The translations under genes and the position numbers were made by a program. From Phycisphaerales bacterium (GTDB lineage: Bacteria; Planctomycetota; Phycisphaerae; Tepidisphaerales; Tepidisphaeraceae), in NCBI GenBank assembly GCA_020847545.1, contig JADLBV010000001.1:1-64000 (forward strand): 64,000 nt of DNA. The letters run 5' to 3'. A model generated the notes under the pieces. It was given only the letters and a program-made list of their open reading frames with translations, searched no databases and was not told where the DNA came from. This document shows positions 39,936-47,495 of this stretch, piece by piece (position 1 is the stretch's first letter; every line of letters begins with the position of its first letter).

Positions 39936-40268
39936 ATGTCAATGGATCGTAGTTTGAAGAGCGCCAACTCTCTGGTGCGTCATCGCAATGTGCTGACCCG
40001 CACCGAGCGGCTGGACAAACTCAAGGATGAGGAAAAGTGGAACGACAGCAAGAGCGTGTTTGGGTTGCCGAAGGTTGCCCATCGCAAGCAGGCGGTCGCC
40101 AAGACGGTGAAGGAAGAAGCCGCTCCCGGCGCTGAAGGGGCCGCGCCGGCCGCCGGCGCCGCACCGGCGAAGGGCGCAGCTCCGGCCGCCAAGGGTGCCG
40201 CGCCGGCCAAGGGCGCTGCTCCTGCAGCCCCGGCCGCCAAGGCCGCCGCTCCGGCCAAGAAAAAGTAA
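39936..40268 (+). CDS. 'Small basic protein' (TIGR04137-type) with Ala/Lys-rich tail
   Basis: The first 50 residues match the small basic protein family of Verrucomicrobia, Chlamydiae and Planctomycetes: MSMDRSLKSANSLVRHRNVL, TRTERLDKLKDEEKW, SVFGLPKV. Usual members end soon after with a Lys-rich stretch. This one adds about 50 residues of low-complexity repeats (GAAPAKGAAPA, PAAKAAAPAKKK). The positive charge suggests nucleic-acid or ribosome binding, but the role is unknown. GAGGTG lies ahead of the start. It is followed by nuoH, with a gap of 43 bases. Confidence 0.88.
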   Translation: MSMDRSLKSANSLVRHRNVLTRTERLDKLKDEEKWNDSKSVFGLPKVAHRKQAVAKTVKEEAAPGAEGAAPAAGAAPAKGAAPAAKGAAPAKGAAPAAPAAKAAAPAKKK

Positions 40269-43806: not shown

Positions 43807-43850
43807 ATTAACGCTATTTTATCGGACCATGCCCCGTATTCGGATTTTCT

Positions 43851-43880
43851 TTGCTTCCGTGGCGGGACAGGGCGTATGAT
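43851..43880 (+). promoter_or_regulatory. Putative promoter for the GspF-N-like/MamK-like gene pair
   Basis: TTGCTT (43851-43856) and TATGAT (43875-43880) are 18 bases apart, about 40 bases before the GTG start at 43919. A sigma-70-type promoter is plausible but not proven. Confidence 0.35.
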
Positions 43881-43918
43881 GGCGTGACGGCGAAGCGTTC
43901 AGCGAGGATTTCTCTACC

Positions 43919-44761
43919 GTGCGTTATCGTTTCCGCGGGTTTATCCGATCCACCGGCCAGCCGGTTGACGGCCATGTTCAGGCCGACCCCGCGGAGATGG
44001 GGTATGGCGCGCTGGCCGAGCATGGCATCATCACCGAATCGCTGACACCCGACCCCGAACCATTAAACTTAAGCGCCCAGCACCAGCCGATCGCCAGCGC
44101 GATCGATTCAGCGCTCGACACGGCCGCATCGCAGGTTCCATTTGATGCCTTGACCGACAAGTTCAAGGGCAAAAACGTCTGGGTGCTGGACCGGGACAAA
44201 ATCCGCAGCCGCGTGGCGCAGGTGGTGGATCAGGCCCTTTCCAACGCCACCAACGTCGGCGGCACGGACGTCACGGCCATTCGGGCCTCGGTGGCCGATG
44301 CGATCAACGGGCTGTTCAAGGACAACCGCAACCTGACCAGCAAGGTGTCGAACACCGCGCTGCAGATGGATCATCAGATCCAGCGGCTGGAATCGTTCGT
44401 CCGCAAGGCCGAAAGCCTGCTGGCGCAGATGACGGTGGCGATCAGCCGGATCGGCACGGGGGGCGGCGGCGGATTCGCGCCGCGTCGATACGGCGGCGCG
44501 CCGTCGATGCAGCAGGAGCAAAACAAGGTATTGGTGGAGATTTTCAAGGAAAATCTCCGCCTTCGCGGCATCGAGATCGACCAGTCGGCCGATGAATTGG
44601 CGGGTGTGGCGGAGGGAACCGACCAACCGGCCGACGGGACGGCCGCTGCGACAGCCGTCGCGACAGCCGACGAGGCCCAGCCGGCCGTGTCGAACCGGCC
44701 CGCGTTGCCGCCGCAAACCTTTGCCACCGGACCGATTTCGGATCAAAATCAGGACAGTTGA
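43919..44761 (+). CDS. GspF-N-like protein of unknown function, partner of the MamK-like gene
   Basis: The start is GTG 43919. The N-terminus (MRYRFRGFIRSTGQPVDGHV, then QADPAEMGYGALAEHGIITESL) closely resembles the first domain of GspF/PilC type II secretion platform proteins, which reads similarly with 'G...A..L...G'. The rest is not GspF: there are no membrane helices. The middle is helical (KIRSRVAQVVDQALSNATNVGG, NTALQMDHQIQRLESFVRKAESLLAQM), followed by a Gly-rich linker and an Ala/Thr-rich C-terminal tail. It ends 40 bases before the MamK-like gene and may recruit or regulate that filament. This is inference. Confidence 0.75.
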   Translation: MRYRFRGFIRSTGQPVDGHVQADPAEMGYGALAEHGIITESLTPDPEPLNLSAQHQPIASAIDSALDTAASQVPFDALTDKFKGKNVWVLDRDKIRSRVAQVVDQALSNATNVGGTDVTAIRASVADAINGLFKDNRNLTSKVSNTALQMDHQIQRLESFVRKAESLLAQMTVAISRIGTGGGGGFAPRRYGGAPSMQQEQNKVLVEIFKENLRLRGIEIDQSADELAGVAEGTDQPADGTAAATAVATADEAQPAVSNRPALPPQTFATGPISDQNQDS

Positions 44762-44801
44762 AAATAGAGTATAGTAGAGAACCCTTTAACGGAGACCATC
44801 C

Positions 44802-45923
44802 ATGACCGAAGCGAATGCAGCACCAAGAGTGAAGCCCGTGGCCGGCCGGCCGATCCTGGCCCCCAATGATCAGGACACCGGACGCGATGAAAAAGTGTTG
44901 TTGCTGGGCATCGACCTGGGAACATCGCGCAGCTCGATTGTGTCGTTGTCGGGCGCGCGAAAGACGGTGGAAAGCTATGTGGGTTATCCCAAGGACGCCG
45001 TCAGCCGCAAGTTTTTGAAGGCGGATGTGATCTACGGCCGGGCGGCGTTGGACAACCGGCTGGCGGTTGATTTGTATCGCCCTCTGGAAAAGGGCGTCAT
45101 CAAGGGGACGCGGGATGATGATGCCAACAGCGCGGAGGAACAGCGTAAAAACCTGGAGGCCGCCAAGGTATTGTTGCGGCACATGGTGGACCTGGTGCAT
45201 CCGGGCCGCGATGAGGTGCTGTTTGGCGTAATCGGCGTCCCTTCGCGGGCAACGGTCAAGAACAAGCAGGCGATTCTGGACATCGCCCGCGAAGTGCTGG
45301 ACAGCGTGATGATCGTCTCCGAACCGTTTACGGTCGCCTATGGCATGGAGCGCATGAGCGATGTGCTGGTGATCGACATCGGCGCCGGCACGACCGACCT
45401 GTGCCGGATGCACGGCACGGTTCCGGTTGAGGAAGATGAAATTTCCTATCCACTGGCGGGCGATGCGGTGGATCAGAAGCTGTATGACCTGATTCGGGCG
45501 CGTTTCCCCAAGGCGCAGTTGACCGTCAACATGTGCAAGATATTCAAGGAGCAGTACGGGTTTGTCTCCGATGCCAAGGACAAGATCGAGGTGATGATCC
45601 CGGTGGATGGCAAGCCGACGCCGCATGACATCACCGCGGATGTTCGTCAGGCATGCGAGATTCTGATCTCTCCAATCGTCGAGGGAATTCAGAAGCTGGT
45701 CTCCAGTTTCAACCCCGAATTCCAGGAACGGCTGCGTCACAACATCGTGCTGTCGGGCGGCGGGGCGCTGATGGATGGCCTGAACAAGCGCATCGAGGAT
45801 GCCATGCAGGCGATCGGCGGCGGGCGCGTGGCGGTGGTTGAAGAACCCCTCTACGCCGGTGCCAACGGCGCGCTGCAACTGGCGGTGGACATGCCGGGCG
45901 AATACTGGCAGCAGTTGCGGTAA
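44802..45923 (+). CDS. MamK-like bacterial actin filament protein
   Basis: MamK builds cytoskeletal filaments that organise magnetosomes. The 373-residue protein has the actin-fold sites: phosphate-1 LLGIDLGTSRSS (34-45), phosphate-2 VIDIGAGTTDLC (190-201) and adenosine LSGGGALMDGL (317-327). Beyond these, it shares MamK-specific stretches, from memory of that family: YVGYPKD, YRPLEKGV, GVIGVPSRA, VSEPFTVAYG, GTVPVEEDE, PVDGKPTPHDIT and the C-terminal AGANGALQLAVDMPGEYWQQL. E174 in VSEPF sits where MamK has its catalytic glutamate. About 30 extra residues precede the core. The gene has GGAG upstream and ends before a strong terminator. No other mam gene is in the window. Confidence 0.9.
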   Translation: MTEANAAPRVKPVAGRPILAPNDQDTGRDEKVLLLGIDLGTSRSSIVSLSGARKTVESYVGYPKDAVSRKFLKADVIYGRAALDNRLAVDLYRPLEKGVIKGTRDDDANSAEEQRKNLEAAKVLLRHMVDLVHPGRDEVLFGVIGVPSRATVKNKQAILDIAREVLDSVMIVSEPFTVAYGMERMSDVLVIDIGAGTTDLCRMHGTVPVEEDEISYPLAGDAVDQKLYDLIRARFPKAQLTVNMCKIFKEQYGFVSDAKDKIEVMIPVDGKPTPHDITADVRQACEILISPIVEGIQKLVSSFNPEFQERLRHNIVLSGGGALMDGLNKRIEDAMQAIGGGRVAVVEEPLYAGANGALQLAVDMPGEYWQQLR

Positions 45924-45951
45924 GTGTTCGTGATTGCGATTTGGAACCCCG

Positions 45952-45982
45952 ACACTGGCGGATCGTCCGCCAGTGTTTTTTT
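45952..45982 (+). terminator. Rho-independent terminator after the MamK-like gene
   Basis: An 11-bp perfect stem (45952-45962 with 45966-45976, arm ACACTGGCGGA) with a three-base loop is followed by seven T. Its tail touches the stop codon of the convergent glpK gene. Confidence 0.92.
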
Positions 45983-47495
45983 ATTGCGCCTCATCGGCGG
46001 AGAGCCATCTCAACGAACGCTCGACCGCCTTTTGCCATTGGCCATGCAGCCGTTGGCGAGTGGATGGGGACATCGTCGGCCGCCAGGAGCGGTCGATGCG
46101 CCAGGTTTGTGGCAGGGCGTCTTCATCTTGCCAGAATCCCACCGCCAGACCGGCCGCGAAGGCGGCTCCAAGTGTGGTCGTCTCGGCCGACTGGCAACGC
46201 ACCACCGGAATATCCAGCAGATCGGCCTGAAATTGCATCAGCAATCCGTTGGCCGACATGCCGCCATCGGCCTTGAGCGATTGCAGCGTGATGGGGCAAT
46301 CCTGTCGCATGGCCGACAGCACGTCGAGGGTTTGAAACGCGGTGGATTCGAGCGCGGCGCGGGCGATGTGGGCCTTGGTGGAGTGCGCACTGAGGCCGAC
46401 AATGATGCCGCGGGCATCGGATCGCCAGTATGGGGCGAACAGGCCGGAAAATGCGGGGACGAAATAGACGCCCCCATTGTCGGCGACGCCGGCGGCGAGC
46501 GATTCAACCTGTGCGGATTGGGTGATGATACCCAGGTTGTCGCGCAGCCACTGGATGGCCGCGCCCGCCACGGCGATGGAGCCTTCCAGCGCATAGACAG
46601 GCGGACGGCCGGCGAATTGATAGCCAACCGTGGTCAGCAGGCCGCGCGTGGAGACAACAGGCGTTGTGCCGGTGTTCATCAATAAAAAACAGCCGGTTCC
46701 ATAGGTATTTTTGATTTCGCCGGGGGCAAAACAGCATTGGCCGACGAGGGCGGCCTGCTGATCACCCAAGTTCGCGGCGATGGGAACCGATGCGCCAATC
46801 GGCCCGGCGGGATCGGTCAAACCATACGCGGCCGGGTCGGATGAGGGGTTGATGCGGGGGAGCAGCGAACGTGGAATGTTGAAAAATTCCAGCAGTTCAT
46901 CATCCCAATCCAACGTGCGCAGATTCATCAGCAAGGTGCGCGAGGCGTTGGTGACATCGGTCAGATGTCGGCCACCATTGGGGCCGCCGGTGAGATTCCA
47001 GATCAGCCATGAATCGATCGTCCCCGCAAGGGCATGACCCTGGGCGGCGGCGTCGCGGGCCAAATCCACATGATCCAGAATCCATCGGATTTTCGGTGCG
47101 GAAAAATAGGTGGCGATGGGAAGGCCGGTTTTCTGGGTGACAACAGGGGAGAACGAATCGGCGGCGTATTGTTCGCAGGCGTGGCGGATGCGCGTGTCCT
47201 GCCAGACGATGGCGTTATAAAACGGCCGGCCGGTGCGACGATCCCAGATGAGCGTGGTTTCGCGCTGATTGGTCAACGCGACGGCCGCGATCTGCCCAGT
47301 TCCATGCTGTGACAGGCAATCCGCGATGACTTGCCGGGTGGAATTCCAGATTTCAAGCGGATCATGCTCGACCCAGCCGGGTTGGGGATGGATCTGGCGA
47401 TGTTCGCGCTGTTGGAGTTTCAGGTTCGCATCCTGATCCACCAGCGAGCAGCGGGTTGACGTGGTGCCCTGATCGATGGCGAGGATGTGGGCCAT
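45981..47495 (-). CDS. glpK: Glycerol kinase
   Basis: GlpK phosphorylates glycerol to glycerol-3-phosphate. The 504-residue protein (ATG 47495, starting [15 protein letters not shown]) has the FGGY-kinase signature [13 protein letters not shown]. Other motifs are [25 protein letters not shown] (catalytic Asp region), the [10 protein letters not shown] phosphate loop and NTYGTGCF. Length is normal for GlpK (about 500). The longer in-frame reading to 47531 adds 12 residues not expected in the family. glpF and glpD are not adjacent. Its tail converges with the MamK-like gene. Confidence 0.95.

Follow-up and report, generated by a model that had tools for sequence, protein, structure and literature searches.

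The stretch of Phycisphaerales DNA analysed here, 64,000 nucleotides long and referred to below as the window, encodes a MamK-family actin and, immediately upstream on the same strand, a second protein with a short motif near its C-terminus. The same motif is found in most of the genes that directly precede mamK in deep-branching magnetotactic bacteria (MTB). We consider it probable that the two genes form an actin-adaptor module, in which the adaptor would carry a filament-docking motif and use its N-terminus for cargo.

Architecture of the locus

A sequence-only reading of the window had assigned the interval 43919-45923 to one MamK-like gene. The actin-like ATPase gene occupies the second part of this interval (44802-45923, plus strand), encodes 373 residues ending in GEYWQQLR, and was identified from its open reading frame, profile and fold. 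The first part, 43919-44761, is a separate gene on the plus strand, with a GTG start, for an adaptor-like protein of 280 residues. The gap from this partner gene to the actin gene is 40 nt. The end of thrS lies ~110 nt upstream of the partner gene on the same strand, and downstream of the actin gene glpK and transaldolases are encoded on the opposite strand, facing the pair. A terminator-like hairpin (45951-45977, plus strand; 12-bp stem and T-run, by consensus match only) lies just 3' of the actin gene and may close a transcription unit of the partner and actin genes. The earlier reading had named these same neighbours, and our gene reading of the flanks, in which no mam gene was found, agrees with it. 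Its description of a lone MamK-like gene holds for the missing mam neighbours but not for the gene itself, which is paired with the gene upstream and is a member of a widespread planctomycete family. Elsewhere in the window, positions 39936-40268 match the model for the small basic protein of PVC bacteria (TIGR04137; 70.2 bits, cut-off 50). The protein has a long tail of KGAAPAA repeats, and its gene stands upstream of a nuoH-like gene.

The actin belongs to the MamK family

The window actin passes the curated cut-off of the NCBIfam MamK model (NF040964; 422.8 bits against 400, E = 8.4e-127). It fails those of the BeeR model (NF053558; 202.8 bits against 530) and the ParM model (17.6 bits against 417), and scores 45-77 bits with MreB models. 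A separate true MreB (465 bits) is present in the same genome as a second actin, which has the actin fold in common with the window protein. The best sequence matches in the PDB are structures of AMB-1 MamK (PDB codes 5LJW, 5JYG and 5LJV; E ~1e-78), aligned over residues 27-372. An AlphaFold model of the window actin (pLDDT 81) returned the MamK filament 5LJV as its top fold match (E = 1.9e-39, TM = 0.83/0.95), and the next family in the search was BeeR (PDB code 8R2N); the nearest solved fold is thus that of MamK, ahead of MreB, ParM and BeeR. Taken together, profile, fold and the tree described below bear out the MamK-like identity first proposed from the sequence.

The ATPase motifs are intact, with the phosphate-binding motifs GIDLGTSR and DIGAGTTD, residue E174 in SEPF, and GGG all conserved. 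Ca. Magnetobacterium casense has a MamK with 52% identity to the protein, and in vitro this relative assembles into filaments in an ATP-dependent manner (PMC4818849); ATP-driven polymerisation is most likely for the window actin as well. Residues 1-28 are disordered in the model, as part of an N-terminal extension of ~30 residues that is predicted to be disordered. BeeR of Verrucomicrobiota, described in the accessible text of its report (PMC11929497) as a MamK-related actin from non-magnetic PVC bacteria, likewise has a disordered N-terminal extension; it shares 27% identity with the window actin in the fold alignment, and that text mentions no partner gene. By comparison, the actins of deep-branching MTB mostly have a short N-terminus, the core being preceded by a median of 9 residues, compared with 26 in the remaining actins.

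Search for magnetosome genes in the genome

The genome, which is 95.6% complete, was searched with models for MamP, MamM and MamA. The MamP model gave at most 25 bits over a short match, as it also did in control genomes; the MamM model reached no more than 125 bits (cut-off 350), for generic CDF proteins; and the MamA model gave TPR-type matches only. All three models thus find just generic relatives, as in the control genomes. As a positive control, the same model library recognises the mam cluster of Ca. M. casense, with MamP and MamM scoring over their cut-offs and MamA, MamB and MamQ below theirs. The remark that no magnetosome genes lie near the actin is upheld; these three models also find none above cut-off in the genome, and no magnetosome cluster emerged that would have spoken against the earlier reading. 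Since the tested mam models give only generic matches here, MamK alone is no sign of magnetotaxis in this planctomycete.

Distribution and phylogeny of the actin

The actin was found over the cut-off in 8 of the 26 genomes of the source's taxonomic family (its own genome included) and in 91 of 392 sampled Planctomycetota genomes, with many more just below. Among planctomycetes in culture, Pla163 and Poly30 have the actin together with its upstream gene (L098 and L106). A scan of genome collections returned 350 relatives. The best 80 of these 350 are mostly from Planctomycetota and MTB, the latter from Nitrospirota, Desulfobacterota and Myxococcota; no alphaproteobacterial MamK/MamJ locus is among these 80, and a search of plasmids returned none either.

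In the tree, the window actin falls inside a Phycisphaerae clade (support 96/93), close to the MamK proteins of deep-branching MTB, which form one clade (100/100). AMB-1 MamK belongs to a different clade, grouping with other Desulfobacterota actins, and alphaproteobacterial MamK is farther from the window actin. A single clade of all MTB MamK proteins is rejected (p-AU = 3e-4). The phylogeny that had been proposed as a check thus places the protein in the MamK family, and nothing places it outside MamK; at the same time, it sits among Phycisphaerae sequences and not in a clade of magnetosome MamK only. The tree also hinted at a position of MTB MamK inside the Planctomycetota (84/93); as the AU test gave no support (p = 0.53), this arrangement was not adopted.

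Some planctomycete genomes encode two MamK-family actins. In G448 (loci L045 and L064) each of the two has its own motif-bearing upstream gene, and further examples are G229 and G201. Two such actins also occur in one presumed magnetotactic Myxococcota bin (G445; L100 and L157), where the motif is missing upstream of either, an exception among loci of the deep-branching MTB type. A different arrangement is seen in Desulfobacterota (loci L168, L169, L172 and L173; genomes G594, G750, G644 and G689), where MamK-like actin genes occur as a close pair with no adaptor motif upstream; these actins have their place in the tree near AMB-1 MamK. Between the paired genes is a short gene whose product begins with a hydrophobic, membrane-anchor-like segment, continues with charged, coiled-coil-like sequence and has a conserved 'SHYLP' near its end.

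The partner protein is conserved with the actin

Within the source's taxonomic family, each actin copy whose upstream sequence could be read is directly preceded by the gene for the same partner. Around the pair the other genes vary, with thrS and glpK in the window and in L007, and cysD/cysN-like genes in L005. A partner profile run over the 392 Planctomycetota genomes returned five matches, all of them just upstream of a MamK-family actin; three of the five are weak (E = 1e-4 to 1e-6) and come from other families. The 14 partners from Phycisphaerae are 34-87% identical to the window protein.

Three regions of the partner stand out. The first is an N-terminal β-β-α-β domain (43919-44050, plus strand; residues 1-44, 'MRYRFRGFIRSTGQPVDGHV...GIITESL'), which is conserved in the 14 Phycisphaerae adaptors and is a candidate module for recognising cargo or a cell site. 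The second is a core, 'GKNVWVLDRDKIRSRVAQ' (44168-44221, plus strand; residues 84-101), in a predicted helical region; its invariant residues among the 14 adaptors are Gly84, Val87, Val89, Asp91, Arg92, Lys94, Ile95 and Val99, and a profile of this core also finds the adaptors of L070 and L075, outside the class Phycisphaerae (E = 2e-5 and 1e-4). The third, near the C-terminus, is the motif 'KVLVEIFKENLRLRGIE' (44525-44575, plus strand; residues 203-219), a predicted short filament-binding motif in which Val204, Leu205, Ile208, Phe209 and Asn212 are invariant in the 14 adaptors. The AlphaFold model of the partner is mostly of low confidence (mean pLDDT 59), with residues 1-40 at a pLDDT of ~91, and places the motif in a predicted helix (196-215).

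The partner has no known family in Pfam or NCBIfam. A Foldseek search of the PDB with its model returned nothing below E = 0.1, and nothing convincing for the N-terminal domain, and a profile search of the PDB gave matches at chance level only (best E = 0.029). The N-terminal domain has a GspF-N-like pattern that could have linked it to type II secretion. The profile scores were not significant (E = 0.16 for one member; 1.2 and -0.4 bits against the genome's own GspF-like proteins), and we do not claim this resemblance.

A tail motif shared across phyla

The motif can be written as [LM]xx[IVLM][FLVM]xxNxx[LMI], the window version being VLVEIFKENLRLR. Examples are KKELMSKIFQANLELRKQ in planctomycetes, EQNKVLVEIFKENLRLRG in the window, KKALLRGVLQENIMLREET in Ca. 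M. casense (L093) and SSLLLAIVNENRALRD in Desulfamplus (L103). When this fixed pattern was applied to the non-redundant set, 69 of 83 Planctomycetota loci had a motif-bearing ORF ending shortly before the actin gene, and five of the six deep-branching MTB loci had one just upstream of mamK. Control windows in the planctomycete loci gave 0/45, 0/53 and 0/78 (0/176 in total), and the pattern occurs in the last 40 residues of 9 of 729 other ORFs of the loci (~1%). Many of the planctomycete misses are near variants, such as FFDGIIKENLQLRG (L125) and FLRIVDENLTLRG (L120), and in L053 the motif-bearing adaptor is encoded one gene further upstream. Exceptions with no motif upstream are the MTB locus L100 and the planctomycete locus L051. 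Upstream of MamK-like actins in other Desulfobacterota, the motif is present in one of 11 cases, and that one is on a contig from a viral collection. On the viral-collection contig L161 (IMG/VR, IMGVR_UViG_3300009370_000045), the MamK-family actin has 45% identity, and a short unrelated ORF separates its gene from an upstream ORF that bears the motif (EKKLELLKVVFEENKQLRKDLSG).

Because the pattern was composed after the loci had been read, the control windows and a held-out profile are the stronger evidence. The profile was trained on 59 planctomycete C-termini from outside the Phycisphaerae set. When 2248 six-frame ORFs were ranked with it, Phycisphaerae upstream ORFs took nearly all of the first 17 places; these loci are partly redundant, some of them representing one genome that entered the set through two tools. 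For MTB, the corresponding ORFs rank 1, 3, ~10 and ~12 of 1082, with weak scores (best E = 0.49).

While the tail motif stays, the N-terminal parts of the adaptors vary. The 44-residue β-β-α-β domain is found in Phycisphaerae, and in other planctomycete adaptors its place is taken by a GGDEF domain (PF00990; E from 1e-12 to 1e-16), by a helical 'KLNLV' region or by coiled coils alone. In the GGDEF-type adaptors the catalytic signature is replaced, for example by 'MVDDRL'. The GGDEF domains of the partners in L048, L049, L055 and L069 exceed the Pfam cut-off and have no catalytic signature, and a nucleotide-sensing or structural role is possible for them. The adaptors of L122, L124, L127 and L144 contain two to three near-identical copies of the motif (e.g. 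GGGLLAGLVRENQALR), separated by unrelated, divergent linkers of low complexity, as would be expected if the motif is a binding unit.

Discussion

In the model that we propose, the downstream gene would supply the MamK-family actin, which would form an ATP-driven filament, and the upstream gene would supply an adaptor for it. The helical motif near the adaptor's C-terminus would dock on the filament, its helical or coiled-coil middle would act as a spacer or in oligomerisation, and its variable N-terminus would hold cargo or a site in the cell; exchange of the N-terminal domain would then alter what the filament positions. In deep-branching MTB the cargo would be the magnetosome, and its positioning one use of the module. 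That the actin positions another organelle or complex had already been suggested from the sequence, and the paired adaptor-like gene makes this idea more specific and easier to test.

Known systems offer a precedent by gene position. The gene for MamJ, the protein by which magnetosomes are tethered to MamK in Magnetospirillum, is located immediately upstream of mamK, and in MV-1 the adaptor Mg-1g50 is likewise encoded immediately upstream of mamK (PMC10653835). The window locus resembles these systems in its MamK-family actin, in the same-strand partner gene immediately upstream and in the proposed tether between filament and cargo. It differs from them in that no magnetosome genes were found at the locus and that no known family is detectably similar to the partner. 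Outside the magnetospirilla no MamJ orthologue has been identified, and the same authors expect that MamJ-like partners have been overlooked there (PMC10653835); by analogy, the simplest reading of the upstream proteins described here is that they are such partners. MamK and Mad28 of RS-1 belong to an interaction network that includes several coiled-coil Mad proteins (PMC12748827). Closer counterparts are the deep-branching MTB loci L093 and L103, which combine a 50-54% identical actin with an upstream gene that has the same C-terminal motif. The upstream protein of these bacteria differs from the window partner in its N-terminus and, unlike the window locus, L093 and L109 are part of mam clusters, the neighbours in L093 being MamP, MamM and MamB-, MamQ-, MamA- and MamE-like proteins.

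The main rival to this model is that the upstream protein regulates the filament through the motif, by nucleation, capping, bundling or turnover, and holds no cargo, the N-terminus serving as a sensor or oligomerisation domain. MamJ and LimJ do affect MamK turnover in AMB-1 (PMC10653835), and some adaptors have a degenerate GGDEF domain, or are short coiled coils with no obvious cargo domain. Diverse N-terminal modules on a constant motif are, however, more naturally explained by changing targets than by changing regulation, and multiple copies of the motif in one adaptor are consistent with crosslinking or tethering. We therefore think regulation as the sole role rather unlikely; it may also be combined with tethering.

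It is also possible that the likeness between the MTB and planctomycete motifs is a coincidence or the product of convergence, and that only the planctomycete pair reflects shared inheritance. The MTB motif scores are individually weak, the N-terminal parts of the MTB proteins ('YxxAxxEYAG'-like) have no similarity to planctomycete ones, and the case in MTB rests on position, in five loci from about four lineages. Against this, gene position, strand and placement near the end agree in those five of six loci, compared with the background of ~1%, which makes this second alternative quite unlikely in our view; even convergence would speak for one shared binding site on the actin.

That the pair is what remains of a lost magnetosome cluster seems very improbable. 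The window actin is close to the MamK of deep-branching MTB, and MTB have been reported from Planctomycetota (PMC12748827). The pair is nevertheless widespread in this phylum, with several of the 91 positive genomes holding two copies and the adaptors being diverse; motif and reading frames are intact, MamP, MamM and MamA are absent in the genome search, and the Phycisphaerae actins form their own well-supported clade. Least probable of all is DNA segregation with the upstream protein as a DNA-binding adaptor: two-gene actin-adaptor operons are typical of ParM systems, but the ParM match is negligible, the locus looks chromosomal (thrS, glpK and the nuoH-like gene), profile searches found no DNA-binding domain in the partner, and 43811-46000 holds no centromere-like repeat array.

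MamK relatives in non-magnetic bacteria were already known in principle, as the BeeR paper indicates (PMC11929497), and NCBIfam already has a 'MamK family' model. In the open-access literature searched, neither the upstream adaptor family nor its motif in MTB was described, and no paper reported how widely the planctomycete family is spread. The motif common to mamK-adjacent and planctomycete genes names candidate adaptors and a candidate actin-binding peptide. These candidates address the question of how MamK holds magnetosomes in deep-branching lineages, in a form that is testable with purified proteins.

On a broader proposal we are evenly divided: MamK would be part of a general bacterial system in which a C-terminal motif docks exchangeable cargo adaptors, planctomycetes would use it for one or more other cargoes, sometimes with several pairs per cell, deep-branching MTB would use the same motif for magnetosomes, and the missing MamJ equivalents would be the genes just upstream of mamK. 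The actin-adaptor pairs described here suggest other cargoes for MamK-type filaments in Planctomycetota, a phylum noted for its unusual cell plans. They also suggest that the track on which magnetosomes are lined up is part of a wider system of tracks and adaptors in bacteria; magnetosome alignment may have recruited such a system ready-made.
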